From Buxus sempervirens (Eukaryota > Streptophyta > Magnoliopsida > Buxales > Buxaceae), in NCBI GenBank assembly GCA_947561395.2, contig OX387184.1:16472205-16536204 (forward strand): DNA of 64,000 nucleotides. The letters run 5' to 3'. Within the stretch, counting starts at the first letter, position 1. Every line of letters begins with the position of its first letter. Of this stretch, positions 409 to 17,880 are shown in pieces. Below the pieces are notes generated by a model, which ran no database searches, was not told the origin of the DNA, and worked only from the letters and a program-made list of their open reading frames with translations. Both the position numbers and the translations under genes were made by a program.

Positions 409-2054
409 AGAGGCCACCCCCCTCATTTGAGCAAGCCTTCTCCCCTGGCCGTCCCCCTTCTCCATCCTCGACTTTTCTGCAACCAAGCTCTGCCCATTTG
501 TCATCATGCCCAATACCCAAACATTTTCAATACCCAAAATACCCCCATCCTACTTAAACCATGCCTAATCCCTCTCTTTTAACCTTCAGTCAATTCCACC
601 TTAGCAAACCTCTTTCAAAATCATCCTAAGCAAACCCGAAGGACGCGGAAGCGCTGCCGGAATTTTCGGAGAATCCATACATCAACAAATCCAGAAGTAA
701 TAGTAGGGTAACATCTCTAATGGCTTCTTTCTTTTGATATACATGCAAATTCCTTCGTATAAGTGACTTTGTATTCTTTCTTTTTTTATCTTATCACATG
801 TTTACTAATCAACTTGTTTGGTTTTGGTGGAATCCTCCCATGCAAATGAGCAACATTCCTTGAAATAAAGGATGAACCCATAGAACAATAAAAAAGCAGT
901 ATTTTGATTAATGATGCTTGCAAATACAAAAGGAGTTTGTACTCCTTAGATCTTCCCCTGTAAATTCCCCCTTTCCCATTCTTGAATTTGGCTGCAAATA
1001 ATCAAGATAAAGTCTTGCTGCTTCAAGAAAAACAAAGGGAAGAAGGAAAAATGGCCTTTTAGGCCAAATGAAGGAAATGAAGGATTCTGAAGGCCTTGGA
1101 ATCATCACAGAAGTCATTGGAGTTCCCAAGAAGGCCACGGAACAGATCCAGATTGAAATCGGCAGCAAACGGGCAAACTGAGTTGCGCCCGTAAACTCAG
1201 GCCGGTCCAGCCTGGACCGTGTTTGCTTCACGGGCAGAAGAGACCGTAGTCAATCCACGGTCAGGTTGGACCGTAAAGAAAATACGGGCAAGTGTAAAAA
1301 TAATATAAAAAATGTAATTTTCCGGCCCGGTTGAACCTAATTCAACCTGAACCGGCCTGAACCGAACCCTTTAACAACTTGGGCTGTCTTAAGCCCATCT
1401 TTGGACCATGGGCCCAGATGGGCCCACCAAGACCACCCTGGGCCCAACTGTGGAGCCCATTTCGGACCGGCCCAAACCAGGCCCGTTTTCAATAAACGAG
1501 CCCAAGGCCACTTGACTCTGGCTAATGGGCCCATTCCAAGCCCATTAAGCCCAAACCTAAAGTGTAAATAAATAAAATAACCAAATGGGTTACCCAATAA
1601 CCCAACTGGGCCCAAGGCCCAACCATGGCAGCCCACGGGTCTTCCAACGGGACTCGGATCCGACCCACTTCATTAACTTAATGAAAAGATAAAATCAAAT
1701 AAAAGGGGACCCACACCATCAACGGTCCCCACCAGACCAAATAAGTGTGCATGTTGGCTTAGGAATTGGGTGAAAACTAAGTTGACTCAGACCAAGGAGA
1801 CCCACGGGACCTGTCAATCGACGGGGCGGGCTAGGGTGTCTTCGGGCTTCCCTAGACGTAACCGAGAACTTGCTCAGAACTCTAATAAGCCGCAGACCAG
1901 AATAATTAGGCCCGAATAGGTGCCCCTTTTGTGTCTGCCTGCACCTCTCAGGCAGTGGTGACTCCAAACTCCAAAACAGTCCCGAGGCGAGCATCACTTC
2001 TACATGCACCTCGTCGTGCGACCCGCGAAACCGAAAAAAAGGGGTGCGCACACA

Positions 2055-3117
2055 TGAAATGAGTGGTCAGAAATTGCTATTGAGGAATTAAACTATACTT
2101 CTTGGCTCTTTAGCTCATAAATATGCTCATGAATCATGAGACAAACCCAATATCTTACCTTTCTGATTTTGTGCTTTTTAAAATTTGAATAACCGAAAAA
2201 CCTCAGGCTGCCAAGTATGGAAGCAAGGGTTCCAGTCTAACAACCATTTTAATCTAATACATGCTTGGATCAAAACAGAATTCCAACGAAACAGAAACAC
2301 TACAAAAGTCGACAGAAACATAATCCCAACAGACATCGACAGAAACAGCACCCAACAGACATTGACAGAAACAGAAATCGACAGAACAGAAATCCAACAG
2401 AAATCAACAGAAACAGAAATAACTAGAACCAAACAGTAATCAAATGGAAATTTATCAAAACAGGATTCCATCGCAAACTCAACAGTAGTCAAATGAGCAA
2501 ACAGAAATCAGAAAAACCCAACGAAAATTGATGAAATCGAATAAACTATGCTACTTACTGATTTTCGCTCAATCCACGCACACTCTCTCTATTTTCCTCT
2601 TCCTCTTCTCTTTTCCTTCTTCTCCTTCTCGTTTTTTTTTCTCCTTCTCTCCACGATTTTTTTTCCTCTCTTCTCTTCCTCCACTCGTTTTCTTCCTCTC
2701 TTCCAACGAACGACCAAGAGAACGATTGCTTCCTCTCTTTTCTTCCTCTCCTCCACTCGTCTCCTTCCTTTCCTTGGCTCGATTTCTTCCCCCACGATTT
2801 TGTCTCTCTCGTTTTTCTTCTCCTAACCCTAACGAACCAAGCAACAAAAACCCCCAAATCCCAATTCGTCAATTGCCCCTTTTTTTTGTTTTTTTTTTCT
2901 TTTTAAAACCCATGGAACCCATGAGCCGGTTCATTAATTTGAACCAACCCCCCCCCCCCCCCCTCCCCTTGAACCACTAAACTAAACAACCCTTTTTAAC
3001 CCACTACTAATGAACTAATTTAACCAAATGATTTCTCTTTTTTTTTTCTTTCTATTTGTTCTTATTTAATAATTTTAAATCTCAATTCCAATTTCTAAAA
3101 ATTTCTGGGGTTTTACA
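2055..3117. mobile_element. Non-coding LTR-like segment ending in a TGTAAAACCCC terminus
   Basis: Read on the minus strand, 3117 begins TGTAAAACCCCAGAA, a typical plant LTR start, and at this point the homology between 3118-3691 and the solo LTR at 5529-8402 breaks off. This implies insertion of one LTR element into another. Inside are an AACAGAAATC-rich stretch (2270-2470), a strongly pyrimidine-rich stretch (2570-2830) and a C homopolymer near 2950. Reading frames over the pyrimidine tract are low complexity and are not genes. The left border is not defined. Confidence 0.4.
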
Positions 3118-3691
3118 CCAGGGGTAGAAGAGTCCCAAGGGTAGGCCTAAAAAGCCTTCTAGATTATTCCAATTCAAGCAAATGCCTTGAATTGTTGTAA
3201 TACTAGAAGTTTCGGAGGGTGAAATAGGGAGTTCAAGTCCCTGAGAGAGAGGTAATATGCGTAAATAAGGCTCAGAGATCGAACCATTTCGCAAATCCTC
3301 GAAACAGCCAAAACCGCATACACAGTGCGGTTTCCACAGAACCGTCACTATAAGGGCGGTTCCTATGCAATTTTAACCAAACCGCACATACAGGACGGTT
3401 CAATTCAGTTACGCTCGTCATGATTGCTATCGACGTGGCTCAATGGCCGAAGCTTCTCGAAGCCACGTGGCAGCTCACACAACAAGCATGAATATCAACC
3501 GTGCTGTGTGTGCGGTTGCAACCGCACATACAGAGCGGTTGAGACCAAAATTACAAAAACCGTATACTCAGTGCGGTTGGCATCTTTTTTTGATTGTTTT
3601 TGAATGTTTGACATATGTCAAGGCTCAAACAAGGCATTTAAAGTTCTTTTGAAGGTTCTCTTCTATGGAAGTGCAATTTGGGGTGTCTACA
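3118..3691 (-). mobile_element. Partial Tat/Ogre-like LTR (U3 part), same family as the element at 5529-8402
   Basis: This stretch matches about 7370-7880 closely: the GGGTAGAAGAGTCCCAAGGG block, the AACCGCA...GCGGTT palindromes and the GACGTGGCTC / GAAGCCACGTGG pair. It ends at 3691 with GGGGTGTCTACA, the same terminus as the solo LTR at 8402. Orientation is minus, with the LTR start at 3691. It is truncated at 3117 by another LTR-like element. Confidence 0.65.
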
Positions 3692-4104
3692 ACGGGCCAA
3701 CTCGATTAACCCGATTATAAACAGGTTGAGTTGATACGTTTATTAATTGGGTTGGGTGCAGTTTGGGGAAGGTTGGGGTTTCCCCAACCCGCCAGTAATC
3801 GAGTCAACCCGATTATGACCCGCCAACCCGACTGGTAACCCGATAAAAAAAAAGTTGACAAAAGTATCATGTTCCGACCCGATTAACCCCAAAACCCGAC
3901 CCAAACCCGGTACAACCCAATCCAATTAACCCCCCAACCCTATTTTAATAATATTTTTTGAAAAATAAAAATAATAATAAACGGGTTTGCGGGTTAAACC
4001 CATTTATTGGCGGGTTGGGTTTGGGTTTGGGGTTTTCCAACCCGCCTTAATTTAGTCCAACCCGATTATGACCCGACCTGAACCTGACCCATTGCCAGCT
4101 CTAG
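3692..4104. mobile_element. hAT-like non-autonomous element fragment
   Basis: Repeated AACCCG / CGGGTT blocks on both strands, ending at CCATTGCCAGCTCTAG (reverse complement CTAGAGCTGGCAATGG), the usual terminus of plant hAT-type short elements. The left end is cut by the LTR that ends at 3691, so no target duplication can be checked. No coding potential. Confidence 0.4.
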
Positions 4105-4680
4105 TAGGCATAAATGACCATGTAAGTGTTGGTGGGGTAAGAAATGCAATTGATTCGGCAATTAAACAATATGAATGAGCTTGTAGATTGTTTTTGCAAT
4201 TAAACTATATTAATGAGCTTGTAGATTTTTCTTACATTGTATGTAGTATCTTAGAGAATCCCTGAGATTCCCTTTATCCTTCTTGATCATTTAATTAGGG
4301 AATTAATTCCCCATTTCCCTTTTTATTATTTTCCCTCTTCTTACATTCCCAATATGGCAATATTCATCAATCAATGAGAATCCATAGCATCTACATTGTT
4401 AATAGATTGGACTGAACCACCAATTGGAAATAGATGTCAGAGCAAAGCTTTGGAAGCACAAACGAAAATTTTACAACAGTGCATGCGATCTAGATCATGG
4501 CTTGAAAACATTTCCAACTTGCCCCGAACACAAGTCATTTGGACAACATCAAGACGTATTGATCATTAAAAGATCCTAATACCAGAATGAATATAGTGAT
4601 GCATGTAGGTATAAATGCACCATAATGCAATGATAATGTATCCTGCACATAGAACTCAAACTAAAAGGTTAAGAACTCAC

Positions 4681-4785
4681 TTCATGCTCAATGTTGTCCC
4701 TTTCTTGTTCAGTGGTGCGGTGAGGATCCACATAATCCCTCCTATGCTTAACAATGAACTGTTCCAGAGCTTCGATGCTTTCAAG
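4681..4785 (-). pseudogene. Isolated exon of a syntaxin-81-like (SYP81/Ufe1) SNARE gene
   Basis: On the minus strand these 105 bases encode 35 residues, beginning LESIEALEQFIVKHRRDYVD and continuing through HRTTEQERDNIEHE. This matches the N-terminal region of plant SYP81, an ER Qa-SNARE of Golgi-to-ER traffic. It is flanked by a good acceptor (TTGTTAG) and donor (GTGAGT), phase 0 at both ends, so it looks like one genuine exon. I found neither the preceding exon (with the initiator Met) nor the following ones nearby. It ends 157 bp from the broken end of a WAT1 fragment on the same strand. Most likely a duplicated or captured exon rather than a working gene; the family assignment is from memory of the protein and is fairly firm. 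Confidence 0.6.
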
Positions 4786-4942
4786 CTAACAAATAAAACT
4801 GAATTTAGTAGCAGCCATCAATTGGCTATATGTGTAAATTTATTTCTATAACATAGTATCTAAAATAGAATGGAAGCAACATGAACAATGATCCCCAATC
4901 AGCAACATCAAAATAAATAAAATCAACAAAGAAGACAATTTT

Positions 4943-5400
4943 AGATTCAAGCCCAAGGTCATCCTGAAATTCTAAATAGTAAAATGAACAACCGTACTGT
5001 GATAACAACTCTTGATACAAAGAACTTTGAAAAATAAAATTCAACTTGCCCGCATAAAGCAACCAAGAAGATTCTGCTTAATAACTTGAAAGATAAGGGA
5101 GGAGCCTCCTTCCTAGAAATCAGGAGAAGAATATAACAAAGTCCATTAGAAACAAAAATGTGAAGGCTAAAGAGAGCAAGGAGAGTGGTAGTGATTTGGT
5201 ACCTTTCGAGCAATAAGGCAAACGGGAATAAGGCCAGTGAGGCAAAGGCTTGCCTATATACAACAAACACAAAAGGATTCATTCCCTTGCCAATTGCTGC
5301 TTTTGAGAGCAAGGCCATCCCTGCATACACAAACTGTATGAATAGCATTGCAAAATAGGGTCCATGGGTCTCCATTATCATTATAAAGCCAGGTAACCCC
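4943..5400 (-). pseudogene. 5'-truncated-copy fragment of a WAT1-related transporter gene (exons 1-2 and start of 3)
   Basis: About 97% identical by eye to the 5' part of the intact WAT1 gene at 19927-22973. It keeps exon 1 (from ETHGPYFAML to FALLLER), exon 2 (EAPPLSFKLLSRIFLVALCG) and the first ~24 bases of exon 3, then stops at 4943, where matching sequence ends abruptly. The start region is altered: the upstream ATG of the intact copy is lost, though an internal Met remains. Upstream homology resumes beyond an inserted solo LTR, at 8403-8551, so the original duplicated block was about 735 bp. Without four more exons it cannot encode a transporter. It is a duplicate that was truncated and later split by a retrotransposon insertion. 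Confidence 0.85.
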
Positions 5401-10606: not shown

Positions 10607-13518
10607 TTAATGACCGGATAAGAGATGATAAAACTTACCGAGAAAGCTACAGTGAGCAACCTAATGTTCCATCCGAGCCTCCATACTTCCCAATTTCCCT
10701 TTTCAATGCAGAAAGCGAAGATGACTGACTGGACTGATGCCATGAAAGACAGCATAGCAGTGCTCGAGTAATGGCACGGGTACTTGACACTCATCTTAGC
10801 CTGGGTGGATAGACAGAGGAGGGTTATTAAATCAATTAAGGTATAACACAGACCTATTGAGGATAATATAATCTCGTGCATGGTTGGTCGTTATCGTCTT
10901 GGATATATCACCTGAATTATCAACCAAATGGCAAAAGACACACACATGCCTAGAGCATACAGCGAACCCAGTAGGCTATTACCAGGCGATTTTGCCACGT
11001 GGACTCCTCCATGATGATAATGATTTATGAGGTTGATATTGGTTGACCAAATGTTGATCTCAACTCTGTAGAATGTAAGGATCAAGGCTCCGCCTATCCC
11101 ATCGTCCCAAACACCTTAGCTTTTCCCGCTACCTTCCCCAAATCCAGCATCTCCAACCTTTTTATTCAATTAATCCACAACAGATAATTTAATTTCTTAT
11201 GAACTAATAAAGCACTGGAGCTAGCATAATTTTCATGTCTTTATGTTCTAAAAACTAGAATACTACGTCCTATATATATTTTGAACAGTGAGAGCTTTAA
11301 CCTTAAATTTCACCTGAAAAAGATATTAGTGGTGAAGGTGGTAGGAGGGATAAGATTAGTCATGACCGAAATAAACGTTACAGAAGTTACTGCAAAGCTA
11401 GCCAAGTATAAATTTTGACACAACGATCCCCTGAAAATTAAGAAACGTAAAATCTAATAATGAAGGAATTACTAGATTCGCTTTAAATATTGATCACTTC
11501 TGCCATTTATAAAGTTTTTTTTTATGTAGAAAGAGGGCCATCATGACATACCCAAATAACCCACATAAAAAAGATTGAAAGACCACCGTCCATGTCAGTT
11601 TTGATCTGCTTTTCCTGCAAAAAGATAAATGAAAAACAAAATTGCAGATTAAAATAAAACAAAGAGAGAGAATCAAAATTAAGAAAAAGAAGGCTTTGGA
11701 ACCATGCACCAATTTGAAGACTGTTAATGATCAAATAAAAAACTGTGTGGAAATTAAATCTCAGGACCTAACCAACAGGCTATTGATGATGAAATAAAAA
11801 AGACAAGAGGGAAGAGAAAATATTTCTCTACTTTCTAAGTTTAAATATCCATTAGGACTACAAAAAGTCAAAACCAAAACGCAGATAAAATAAAGAGCTG
11901 TTAAGGCGTTGATAGATTTTGGTTTTCTAAATTAGTGATCGAAGATCATATCTTGAAAGGTCCTCTAAACTTGCTTATTGGATTAATACAAAAAATAAAA
12001 AGGGAAACAAGTGGAATTAAATTCACCTCTCAAAGATGAAAGCAAGAGGAGCAACAAATGCTGTCGCGAACATATATCTGTAGGCCACCATAACAGTCAA
12101 GCTCATTCCATCATTTCTAGCCAATTTATAGAGCACATTCGCACCAGTAAACACGACCTGAACCAACACCATTGCCATTGCTGGCTTCAAACCGTGCAGA
12201 AAGTCGCAGAAATTACCAGCCATGTCACCTAAACAGTATTAAGAGAACTATAAAGATCGAACAAGCAAGAACTTAGAAAATCAAGTGTCCCCTTCTCCAC
12301 TTCTCCCTTCATATTATCGTTTGGATTTTGCTTGAATTGAAAGTGGAGTACAGAACCTTTTTATACACACATGGAATCCAGGGTTGCACCATCTTTCCCA
12401 CGCACTACAAAAAATTAATTTTTTAGCGACACAAATTTTGCGGCAAACATAAATATGTGTCGCGATATATATCATATGGTGACATACTTGAATGTTCGTC
12501 GTTAAAGAAAATATATTTGCATTAATAAAAAAATCCTAAATAGATATTTGTGGCATTCACTTAAAATCGCCGTTAATTAGAAAAATATTTGCGGCATTTG
12601 TTAAGTTTCGCCGCTTTAACGCTGCAATACGCGCTTTCTGTTCCCGCTGCTGCTGAGATAGGCTGAAGAGCATAGACGATCAAAACAGAAGCGCTCTTTC
12701 TGCTCTGATCAAAACGATTTATCTTCTTTCGTCTGAAACCTATCCCTCTGAACCAGCATCTTCCCTATTAGTCGATTCGTCTCAGGGGATCGAGGCCATA
12801 TCAGGTACGTGTTTAGAATCTTAGGCCAGAAACAGCCGACTGCTCTTCTTGCTGTTAACGGCACTTTACTTTTCTCTTTTGGAGGTTTCAGGCATAGCTT
12901 GACGTAGCATAAGGGATTGCACAGAGCTCCTACCAATCGGCTTCGGTGTTCCGCTATATTCAGTCGATCAGAGCTCGTTCTGCTATAAATTCAATAGATC
13001 GGAATGCACAGAGCTCGTTCCGCTATAAATTCAGTCGATCAATCAAGCATTTCCTCCTTGCTGCTCTAAAAACAAGGAGATTCGCTGGCTTAGGCCCTCA
13101 GTGGGCGTATCTGCTAGAAAGTAACATCGAGAACGAAAAGGATTCCACTGAGGGCAAAGACTTAGAACTTCCTGGGCAGATCGGCCGTTATCACCTTCTA
13201 ACACCTGGTCAGTTTATTTCCCTATCTGGCTTCTAATTTTTATAGTCTAATCAGTCCACTTCGATTCGAAGAGCGAAGTTGAATTTAGAGATACGAATGC
13301 CCAAATCGGGAAATACGTGAACGTGGATGCTGAAATTAGGTCGAAGCTAAGGGGATCGGTTCCACAAATCTGGAATTCCAGGGTTTGGATTCAATTCCAT
13401 CTGCAAGGAACCGGTTATTAGTTATAATTCGATTTGTGAAATTCGTGTTCTGATGTGGAGATCTTGTTGTGGAATTTTCTGTTGGCATCCCTGATTATTT
13501 GGCACCTGACATTAACAG

Positions 13519-13729
13519 GTTCGTTTTCTTACCAAAATATACCATCCTAACATCGACAAGGTAAGCAGAGCTTGCTTTTTCCTTTCCTTGATTCGTTTGG
13601 TCTTAAGAACTTGCATCTTTTTCTGATAAATAATATGACTATATTTCTTGTGCAGCTCGGAAGGATATGTCTTGATATTCTCAAAGACAAATGGAGTCCA
13701 GCTCTCCAGATCCGAACAGTATTTCTGAG
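13519..13729 (+). pseudogene. Captured fragment of a Ubc13-type (UBC35/36-like) ubiquitin-conjugating enzyme gene
   Basis: Two exons with canonical borders. 13519-13560 encodes [14 protein letters not shown] and 13656-13729 encodes [20 protein letters not shown] plus TVFL. This is the core of plant UBC35/36 (Ubc13, the K63-chain E2) and includes the active-site Cys in GRICLDIL. The N-terminal and C-terminal exons of the enzyme are not present, so it is a gene fragment inside the CACTA element. The intron between (13561-13655) keeps GTAAGC and TGCAG. Confidence 0.8.
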
Positions 13730-14732
13730 GTTAGAAGTGTAATGAGTTTTTAATGAACCAGTTTTTTAACAAGTTTTCTCTTGAAAATCAGTAATCAACT
13801 TTCATACAGAAAAGATTAACGCCCTCATTTTGAATAGCGCAACAGCTACTTTCCAGTCCATGTAAATTTAAGCAATAGGATAACTGGTATTGATTGCCTT
13901 CTGTTTGCTCTTTATTTCAGTATTCAATGTATTTGGCCAAGCCTTAGTTGAGGTCTTTAATTAGTGACTTTTGGAGTGAGGGAAAAAGGAAAAAGCACCG
14001 TCTTTTTTGTGTGGATATCTGGACAAAGGAAATAGTAAGAGCACTTGTTATGTAATTATAATCAAGGGTTAAATATTGTGAAAAGCACTTGGTCATCCAA
14101 TTTCAACTTGTTGGTTTTTGCCTAAGCACTTAATACTTTGTCATTTAATAGTCTAATTTGTTGGTTCTGGTCCCTGGGAATTTTTTGTTGAATCTCAGAA
14201 ATGTCTTGAGATACAAAAGATTTATTTCTTTTTTTCCCTCTTCAGTTGACATTCTACTTTAAATTTATGTACCGAATATTTTCATTGTAATCTTTTATGA
14301 TGTTTCGTGGTTAGAATTGGTGTCTTGATTTCACGGTCTGAACTTTTAGGAATGTAAATATTTATGGCCACATGTCATGTTATGTTAAACCCAAGTAATT
14401 GTTGTGCAGGTGCCTCAAAGAGGTTCTTGTACCATCCCAAAGCAGGACTTCTGATTCCATGTTGTACAGGGGAGTAACCTACTGCAGGATGTTGGTCTAT
14501 GGTTTCCCCTTCCATCTTTAAGCTTTGTGGCGACAACTATTTTAGGTATGTTGCTTGACTCAGACCTCCATTTTATATACCTTCTGCTTTCATAATGGCC
14601 TGTCTGAACATGGAAATTCTATCATCCAGAGATAAGAGGAAATCTCCTGCTCCGAGCTGCAGTCCATATACCCCTATTAGTGTTGATTTATTTTTTAGCA
14701 CACGAAAATTCATCATATTGCACAGCACCTTG

Positions 14733-16902
14733 AGCTTCCTCATGTGAAAGCACATGAGAAAGTACCATCACTTCTGCTTGTTAATATCCAGGTATACCTT
14801 GTTCAGGTGCTGCAGCTTCCTACTTATCCTGCTGCCATGTTCCTTGGTGATAGTGATGGAGAAGGGATGAGTCTTGTATTATACTTCAAAGTTTCTGAGA
14901 GCTTTGATAAGGATATATCTCCACATTTTCAAGATAGCATTAAGGTAACTTTCTCCTGTATTTTGCATATGTAGAATTATTTGTCATTCAGATATAAACT
15001 TTGTCAAGGGAATGAAAGTGCATTTTCCTCATCTTTCAGGAAGTCTCCTTGGAGGAAGCCCATCATAATGTTTGTAGATGGTTCCGTGAGTCCTAAGTTT
15101 TTAAATCTCCTGAAGTTATTTTAATTGGTAAATTTATTCAACATAAATCGGCTGGGGTATAATCTCCATTCCCAACATTTACATTTTACAGAAAATGTTC
15201 TGAATGTAATTGTTTCTACAGATTTAGATAAATCTGCCGGTGGCTAGGATAGTTGGTCACATAAATCCTTGCCTTGAATGAAGTCATGTGCATATGCACA
15301 TCTTCTGTTTTTTAAATTTTCATCTTGTTTCCTGTTTATCTCCTTGCATTAGCTCATAACTGTTGCACATTCCATCCCTCTACCAGGTATAAATATCTGA
15401 TCTTGACAGATGAGTTTCTGGGTGGATTTCCAGTGATGGACTATGCTTTGTGCACATGTGTGTGTGTGTTTGTTCATGCATGCATGCATGCATGAACATC
15501 TGTGTCTATATGAAATTTCAGATTCTGATGGTTTCTGTTTCTGCTTCAGAGATTGGTTGACGATGAAATGGAGAAAGTTAAAGGGTTTGCAATGGATTCC
15601 ATGGTTCCTTTTAGAGAAAGACTAAAAATCATGGCTAGTGTGGTTAATCCAGAGGATCTTCTATTGAGCTCTGCTGAAAAGAAGTTTTTGCATGCTTATA
15701 ATGAAAAGCCAGTGCTTTCACGTCCTCAGCACAATTTTTATAGGGTAAGAAAAAGTTTCCTTGTGATCTCTTCCATTTTTGGTTCCATTATATGTATTGA
15801 TCAGGGATAAAGGCACGCATTGCCCTTCTTTGAATCTGTGGCATACAAAATATGCAACTTCTCATATTAGGAAATGAAGGAGTCAGAGGTACCTTTCTAG
15901 CAACTGCTATAGACAGTCCAGTCATGATGTACTAGCAACTATGGAAATTATGCTGTGCACCGAGACTGACTATGGCAATAAACTGGCTAGTATCTAGTAT
16001 GCACAGAGGTTTTTAACTTGTAGGTTGGATTTTCTGTCTGCCAATTCACTTAGTGTGCTCTATGTAGATCATTACTGGAATTGTGCATTTGTAAAGTTTT
16101 TATAGTCATACTAAGAGTGCTAAATTTTGTTATTATGTTTTGATTTTGAGCTATATCTTAGTTTCCTTCACTTCAAAAATATGTAAGTCCTCATATATGC
16201 TTTTCATTATTTCACAAAAATTATGAAGAAATTTCAAGATTACCATAAGTGGATCCAGTTTGAACTAGTAGTCCTAAATTTTTGAAGGGTTGAATCAGCT
16301 CCCAATATGAAACTAATGCTTTAAAATCTAATACAGAGTAATCTTTAATAGCACAAAGAAAAACATTTTTGATGTTGAAGAACTGAGCTCTGAACATTGG
16401 AGTATGCATCAATTATGTTGTAAAAACCTCAGTGGCTAGTTCATTATTGGAAACTAAAAAAATGTTTCTGGTCATTGTTACTCAAGCTACTTAACAGCAT
16501 TCTTTATATTCTTTCAGGGGCCAAATTACTTTGAGATTGATCTGGACATACACCTTTTCAGCTATATATCAAGGAAAGGGCTTGAAGCGTTTCGAGAACG
16601 TTTGAAATACGGGATTCTTGATTTGGGTTTAACCATCCAGGTACAACTTCTTTCTTACAACATTCACCAATGTTTCCCTTTTGTGATGTCGATTGCTTTG
16701 GAAGATCTTATTTTCCTTCTACCAAATTGAAAATTCTTACAGTGCTTGAAATAGGGCTACCAACTGATCTATTATATGATGCTGATGACAGGCGCAGAAG
16801 CCGGAGGAACTACCGGAGCAAGTCCTCTGTTGTACGAGATTGAACAGGATAGATTTTGTAGATAATGGCCAAATACCCACCATTGTGGCACTTGATAGTT
16901 GA
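14733..16902 (+). pseudogene. Captured 3' part of an EDR2-like (PH-START-DUF1336) gene
   Basis: C-terminal DUF1336 domain of ENHANCED DISEASE RESISTANCE 2-like proteins. Pieces: about 14733-14944 ([18 protein letters not shown], then [20 protein letters not shown] to HFQDSIK), 15550-15744 ([20 protein letters not shown] to RPQHNFYR), 16518-16640 ([20 protein letters not shown] to DLGLTIQ) and 16792-16902 ([14 protein letters not shown] to VALDS and a stop). Splice signals are intact. The intron between VNIQ and LPTYP has shrunk to 24 bases in frame (GTATACC...TGCAG). The PH and START parts are missing, so it is a captured gene end; it may still be transcribed with the Ubc13-like exons. Confidence 0.8.
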
Positions 16903-17570
16903 TATGGAAGGTGAGATGTGGGGAGTTGTTTTAAATGCCATCAATCCCCACCAAGAGAGATCAAAAGTTCCATTATGTAACAATTCGGAGAAATGAATGT
17001 ATTACTGGATTTATTGGTTAATTAATTATTACACAGGTTCAAAGGAAGCTACAAAATAAATTTTTTTTTAAAAAATAGAATTTAAATCTATAATGTCGTA
17101 CATTTGTTCGTCGTTAAATAAAACTTATCGCGGCATTCACAAGTGTGTCACTAAATTAAGTAAATTGCGGCGTTCATATGTGTGTCGCTAAAAAAAAAAA
17201 TAGCGGCATTCATATGGGTGTCGTACTACATTTAAAGTGGCAAACATAGCGACACTCATAGAATGTCGCAAATGTTTAGTTTTGGCGACGAACTCAAAGA
17301 ACGTCACTAAATTATTTGCGACACGGCCTTTAGCGATAAAAGTAAGTTCACCGCAATATTCGTCGCTAATAGCTATAGCGACATTCATTTTAGATTTTGC
17401 GGCATTCTTATGAACCCCGCAAAAAATCTAATTTTTTGTAGTGACGTCACGGCGTCTGTCATCTTTCACACAGACACGTGTGCTCAGTGTGCTAGAGGAA
17501 GACATTTCAAGCCTCTAAAATGATGGAATTTATGGACTTTGTGTGATGCTGACTAGGAGCATTAACATCA

Positions 17571-17880
17571 ACACCCTGGAATCAGGTCCACCCAAATAAA
17601 AATAGGATTCACATCGTCTGCTGGTACTCAGCATCCAATGGGAATGGGCCACATCAGCAGCCACATTAAAAATAATGTGGCTCGTGTCAGGGCTACCGCT
17701 GATGTGGCCCATTCCCATTGGATGCTGGGCACCCAGCAGACGATGTGAATCCATAAAAATATATGTCTCAATAACACCCTAGAATTTTTCAGGTCCACCC
17801 AAATAAAAATATGTCTCAATAACACCCTGGAATTTTTCAGGTCCATCCAAATAAAAATATATGTCTCAATAACACCTGTG
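17571..17880. repeat. Tandem ~50-bp repeat interrupted by a foldback MITE
   Basis: Units containing ATGTCTCAATAACACC and GGTCCACCCAAATAAAAAT recur from about 17571, 17760, 17810 and 17863. The inverted-repeat element at 17607-17752 sits inside the first unit. Confidence 0.65.
17607..17752. mobile_element. Foldback MITE with ~65-bp inverted repeats
   Basis: GGATTCACATCGTCTGCTGG at 17607 and its mirror ending at 17752 pair over almost the whole element: TCCAATGGGAATGGGCCACA on one side, TGTGGCCCATTCCCATTGGA on the other. A ~15-bp centre remains. Flanking ATA on both sides could be a 3-bp duplication but is not decisive. Superfamily unassigned. Confidence 0.6.

Follow-up and report, generated by a model that had tools for sequence, protein, structure and literature searches.

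A Pack-CACTA element of Buxus sempervirens carrying pieces of five host genes, with its donor loci, copies and empty site in one genome

CACTA elements of the Tpn1 family of morning glory carry host exons. The closest known system to the element reported here is Tgm-Express1 of soybean, a 5.7-kb non-autonomous CACTA element in the wp allele, which is described as containing intron and exon pieces from five unrelated host genes (PMC1947982, PMC2613891). The Buxus element likewise holds five host fragments. In the published description, Tgm-Express1 is an intronic insertion whose exons become part of the spliced host transcript; in contrast, the present element lies upstream of a gene and is known from sequence alone, while its donors, copies and empty site were traced in one genome. 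Pack-CACTA and Pack-TYPE elements are described as having CACTACAA ends, a target-site duplication and no transposase, and as families of related elements with coding DNA from several loci (PMC8903248, PMC13317346), and the element resembles them in each of these respects. It also resembles the animal Pack-TIRs, for which the account cited gives breakpoint microhomology of 1–36 bp with a median of 2, along with template-switching repair and subsequent transposition (PMC8277862). Many Pack-TIRs are described as lying near the parent, whereas each of the five donor loci that we name in this genome is on a contig other than that of the present copy. CACTA elements of Chenopodium have also captured host gene fragments, but those described are small and are located upstream of transposase domains, which these elements have kept (PMC8978399).

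The window is the whole 64,000-nucleotide stretch that was analysed (C4:16472205-16536204), and the genome searched comprises 676.5 Mb in 247 contigs. The element occupies window positions 12403–17443. Its left end is CACTACAAAAAATTA and its right end is the reverse complement; this 15-bp terminal inverted repeat is perfect and begins with CACTA, a feature of the CACTA superfamily. The target-site duplication ACG lies at 12400–12402 on the left and at 17444–17446 on the right. The left end (12403–13046, plus strand; element positions 1–644) consists of the inverted repeat, subterminal motifs and a leader common to the family, and it matches L017–L021, all of which are without the E2 and EDR2 pieces described below, at 86–88%. 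The right end (16998–17443, plus strand), with subterminal motifs and the inverted repeat, matches the right ends of other elements at 88–95%. GTCGC, GCGAC, GCGGC and GCCGC motifs occur 16 times in the terminal 250 + 400 bp, where 2,000 shuffles gave 0.53 on average and never more than 5; the intervening 4,391 bp contain a single one. An earlier sequence-only reading of this DNA had proposed CACTA ends, an ACG duplication and subterminal motifs, and all three are borne out.

Genome-wide, the left-terminal 29 bp gave 76 matches and the right-terminal 26 bp gave 137, both at two mismatches or fewer, and a reversed-pattern control gave none. Among the 100 right ends listed of the 137, a partner at most 30 kb away was found for 33 of the 76 left ends. 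The element boundaries recur, since a perfect 3-bp duplication is present in 12 of the 13 elements for which both ends were available, the exception being L020. When the element is left out, the joined flanks match a tandem paralogue located 82 kb away (C4:16402626-16403092) at 92%, uninterrupted across the joint and with a single ACG; this is the empty site. The flanks match a second paralogue (C4:16385522-16386116, 85–86%) in two segments separated by about 115 bp, which means that no 5-kb insert is present there either. Just to the right of the element, a MITE-like long inverted repeat (CACATCGTCTGCTGG...CCAGCAGACGATGTG) lies at approximately 17602–17752 of the window.

A six-frame search of window positions 13100–17000 detected neither a transposase nor any other additional Pfam domain at E values up to 0.05, in agreement with the earlier reading that no transposase lies inside. 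An element with the same ends, L013, encodes a transposase-associated domain (PF13963, E 2.8e-14); neither a transposase core domain nor an intact transposase of this CACTA family was found. The present element is a Pack-CACTA, a non-autonomous element of known type, of which it is a well-preserved and unusually traceable new example.

Our analysis revealed five captured pieces, all in sense orientation relative to the element and in the same direction as the transposase-associated domain of L013: (i) The piece at 13083–13485 (plus strand) corresponds to C21:5859834-5860248 (L041) at 93.7% over 415 columns and comes from just upstream of a SYS1-like frame, the donor open reading frame matching PF09801 with an E value of 5.7e-15. 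(ii) A 30-bp piece at 13480–13509 (plus strand) comes from a protein-kinase exon and encodes G(T/I)PDYLAP; its donor is at C19:8865587 (L047), where the Pkinase match (E 2.9e-7, 30.6 bits) is just under the cut-off of 31.7, and a 29-mer of this piece is exact in the donor and in the copy L012 and has one mismatch in the element. (iii) A Ubc13-type E2 fragment at 13512–13927 (plus strand) includes the exons 13519–13560 and 13656–13729, introns and the first bases of the next exon; it derives from C14:10925711-10926155 (L043), with 98.4% over 318 and 93.2% over 103 columns, and matches UQ_con (PF00179) in the element with an E value of 3.7e-6 and 27.0 bits, which is exactly the cut-off. (iv) The piece at 13924–14092 (plus strand) is intronic and derives from an enolase-phosphatase E1 (DEP1-like) gene at C8:5777519-5777693 (L042), with 96.6% over 176 columns; the donor has no Pfam match and was named on the basis of its exons, which match the E-1 enzyme of PDB 1yns (E 3.8e-33). 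(v) The 3' part of an EDR2-like gene, from C10:38.42 Mb (L010), occupies 14093–16997 (plus strand) at 96.5–99.1%, with captured exons at 14699–14791, 14816–14944, 15550–15744, 16518–16640 and 16792–16902 (plus strand); EDR2_C (PF07059) is matched with E values of 8.3e-11 and 5.2e-13 in two profile searches.

The sequence-only reading had described exons of two host genes in one orientation. The orientation stands, as do the Ubc13-type E2 exons and EDR2-like end on the plus strand, matched by PF00179 and PF07059, and the splice signals, which are located where that reading put them, with the E2 exon ending at 13729. The count of two does not stand, since the SYS1-like, kinase and E1 pieces had been missed. 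The EDR2 donor locus retains 53, 178 and 373 bp that the element has lost. In addition, an intron spanning about 77 bp in the donor is trimmed in the element to 24 bp (14792–14815), which is now in frame and free of stops; the trimmed form is common to the element, L002 and L009 and is absent from the donor and L028. Upstream of the captured part, the EDR2 donor has a 204-residue open frame, including a 37-residue exon that matches only itself genome-wide and that we take to be an EDR2 exon. No CACTA end at one mismatch or fewer was found in the fetched stretches of the SYS1-like, E2, E1 and EDR2 donors.

The search for parent genes and further copies that had been suggested for this locus yielded, in addition to these donors on other contigs, two copies. 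L002 on C8 is a second full-length copy, with the duplication ATT and 39 substitutions relative to the element in 5,040 sites. A third copy with the E2 and EDR2 pieces, L012 on C21, has the duplication AGA; its layout is the SYS1 leader, approximately 1.1 kb that is lost in the element, and then pieces of the kinase, E2 and EDR2 loci. About 320 bp of L012 (approximately 1853–2172), which separate the leader module from the kinase/E2 patches, have no source identified. The cargo has thus been mobilised inside the ends, as L002 and L012 both hold E2 and EDR2 pieces, each at a different site and flanked by a different duplication.

The joints indicate how the mosaic may have been built. The E2, E1-intron and EDR2 pieces, which come from three contigs, are directly joined with no CACTA sequence between them; 4 bp (TCAA) are shared at the E2/E1-intron joint and 1 bp, a match at chance level, at the E1-intron/EDR2 joint. 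The kinase/E2 joint in L012 shares no base, and the left joint of the SYS1 piece has no source identified. At the right EDR2 joint, L028 keeps 21 bp more donor sequence, as well as a short intron that is mostly lost in the element, and is therefore taken as ancestral there. The leader/kinase joint, with a 2-bp match, and the right EDR2 joint, with TGAA, arose later, when L012-like and L028-like forms underwent deletion on matches of 2–4 bp. A literature search on the joints of plant CACTA captures, for microhomology or template switching, found no paper so titled.

We favor, with a probability of about 0.6, the explanation that this non-autonomous Pack-CACTA is a five-fragment mosaic built stepwise by break repair with template switching, that its captured exons are neutral passengers, that it is mobilised in trans, and that its likeliest effect is on the neighbouring gene. 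As we infer the order of capture, the SYS1-like leader and the EDR2 piece would have been acquired first, in different lineages of the family, and the kinase, E2 and E1-intron patches later. These patches would have been copied in during the repair of breaks within elements, the repairing end changing template where a few bases matched; the pieces would then have been united by inter-element repair or recombination. The finished element would have transposed at least once more, moved by transposase that relatives presumably supply.

The relatives suggest that pieces also pass between elements. SYS1 is present in seven elements, E2 in three and the E1 intron in two, and some part of the EDR2 piece is present in nine, including the present element, L002, L012 and L028; of the others, only the right end was seen for L009, L011, L045 and L046, and the one at C12:19528554 was counted via a protein match beside a right end. 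The EDR2 piece has four start points and four left neighbours in the element, L028, L009 and L011. L045 and L046 are mosaics in which one EDR2 exon (element positions 2285–2637) is joined to a right half carried by L024 and L023, and this exon also adjoins sequence common to L009 and L016. The kinase locus on C19 (L047, 2117–2745) also matches 630 bp of L027 (96%) and 136 bp of L015 (93%), which probably represents repeated or split capture from one locus.

The interiors of the sister elements L013, L015, L020, L021, L024, L025 and L026 were scanned in six frames. Host pieces in L013, L020, L024, L025 and L026 were kinase, DUF668, dynamin (below cut-off), LRR, a VAL1-type zinc finger and CoA-ligase; the scan gave no match in L015 and one match, under the cut-off, in L021. 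Among the named captures, including the five of the element, ten are sense and one is antisense (DUF668 in L020), a bias that is suggestive only. L024 has two dynamin matches below the Pfam cut-off. The module that is joined to EDR2 in L045 and L046 was considered as dynamin and this was rejected, the weak matches (element positions 1208–1790 of L024) lying outside the shared module (2044–5240).

The family may act as an exon-shuffling pool, a possibility to which we give somewhat less than even odds. In such a pool, no captured piece would belong to a single element; template switching during repair would hand pieces from one element to another, and multi-gene chimeras would thereby be assembled combinatorially and then moved. 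This possibility is supported by the four left neighbours of the EDR2 piece and its junction to the L024/L023 right half in L045 and L046, and by the single kinase locus that matches different pieces in L012 and the element than in L027 and L015.

A different origin, through tandem insertion, was proposed from Arabidopsis Pack-CACTA and is described as supported for Pack-TYPE elements (PMC13317346, PMC8903248). Under that model, two related CACTA elements would have inserted near each other, lost their facing ends and moved jointly with the intervening host DNA. The EDR2 piece, which ends adjoining the CACTA right end, and the occurrence of one piece with different left halves in different elements would fit such a hybrid element. 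However, the E2, E1-intron and EDR2 pieces of three contigs are joined without intervening CACTA sequence, and the kinase patches, 30 bp in the element and 43 bp in L012, would be rather short for DNA that had lain between two insertions; later deletions could also have taken out CACTA sequence that once intervened. Template switching accounts better for direct host–host joints and 30-bp patches than do the tandem insertions described for Pack-CACTA and Pack-TYPE elements. Because the host–host joints are direct, we favor break repair with template switching and consider tandem insertion unlikely; as few joints are readable base by base, this is a preference, not a proof.

Two further explanations concern a function of the cargo. 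First, transcripts of the element or 24-nt siRNAs might act in trans on the donor genes; a regulatory RNA against both parent genes had also been suggested in the sequence-only reading. The element shares identical 21-mers with its donors (SYS1, 202; E2, 207; E1, 97; EDR2, 1,685), but such identity alone is expected from any recent capture, and the captured pieces are sense. We consider a regulatory RNA of this type improbable.

Second, transcripts might splice the E2 core to EDR2_C and give a selected fusion protein, a chimera that the sequence-only reading had put forward. The native splice sites are kept, the EDR2 exons are open, and the exon 13519–13560 is in phase with them. However, the E2 exon 13656–13729 leaves two bases over, whereas every captured EDR2 exon is of phase 0, and none of the 367 native-exon combinations joins this E2 exon to EDR2 in frame. 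The combinations drew on two E2 exons, five EDR2 exons and a single leader exon and were limited to native splice sites outside the SYS1-derived stretch; the leader exon as used exceeded its proper length by 3 nt, with no effect on its phase. Open stretches with both E2 and EDR2 residues occur in 92 of the 367, all through the 14-residue exon 13519–13560, and in none of the 92 is there an ATG upstream of the E2 residues.

Divergence between copies also argues against a selected fusion protein. With exon limits that are a few bases off, EDR2 divergence between the element and L009 is 10/641 in exons vs 30/1,666 in introns (p 0.86), that between the element and L028 is 14/553 vs 58/2,029 (p 0.77), and that between the element and the donor is lower in exons, 8/641 vs 68/2,250 (p 0.011). 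The lower exon divergence from the donor would be expected if only the donor were under constraint. In EDR2 exons 2–5, for which the limits used in the codon comparison are correct, there are one silent and seven amino-acid-changing differences from L009, and four and four from the donor; in L028, these exons contain a stop and have suffered a deletion. The comparison of the Ka/Ks type that had been suggested thus went against the chimera, as neither exon and intron divergence nor codon changes gave any sign of purifying selection on the cargo between element copies. An expressed chimeric gene is very improbable, and the captured exons look like passengers evolving neutrally rather than a working new protein. 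Since the captured EDR2 frame is still open in exons 2–5, a short EDR2-only polypeptide starting at an internal ATG may be possible.

The idea of chance or misassembly, with resident exons lying between unrelated CACTA-like motifs, found no support in our analysis. Both the empty site and the full-length copy L002 refute it, and the donors elsewhere, copies with other duplications and the reversed-pattern control of 0 speak against it as well. Exons resident past the CACTA ends, or boundaries absent from related copies, had been named as grounds for abandoning the earlier reading; our results are the opposite, with donors elsewhere and boundaries that recur.

Under the favored explanation of a neutral, trans-mobilised mosaic, the effect of the insertion would most likely be on the minus-strand neighbour, the upstream sequence of which has been moved 5 kb away. 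The open frame of this neighbour starts at approximately 12223, with a TATA-like box at approximately 12358–12365, and the insertion is therefore about 40 bp upstream of the box; the element is upstream of the frame, not inside it. The frame has no Pfam match and no convincing PDB match, and we presume that the gene is WAT1/MtN21-like. CACGTG and ACGTCA motifs are now 5 kb from the neighbour (window 12223–12402 and 17444–17560), and they are adjacent in the paralogue at C4:16402626.

This study also bears on how DNA transposons acquire gene pieces, for which more than one mechanism has been published. For a single family, the Buxus genome preserves the donor loci together with intermediates, deletion derivatives, re-shuffled relatives and an empty site, and therefore the order of capture is readable and both models, template switching and tandem insertion, can be tested joint by joint. 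Furthermore, the insertion has placed a 5-kb mosaic of genes just upstream of a tandem gene, for which the unoccupied paralogue is a natural control.
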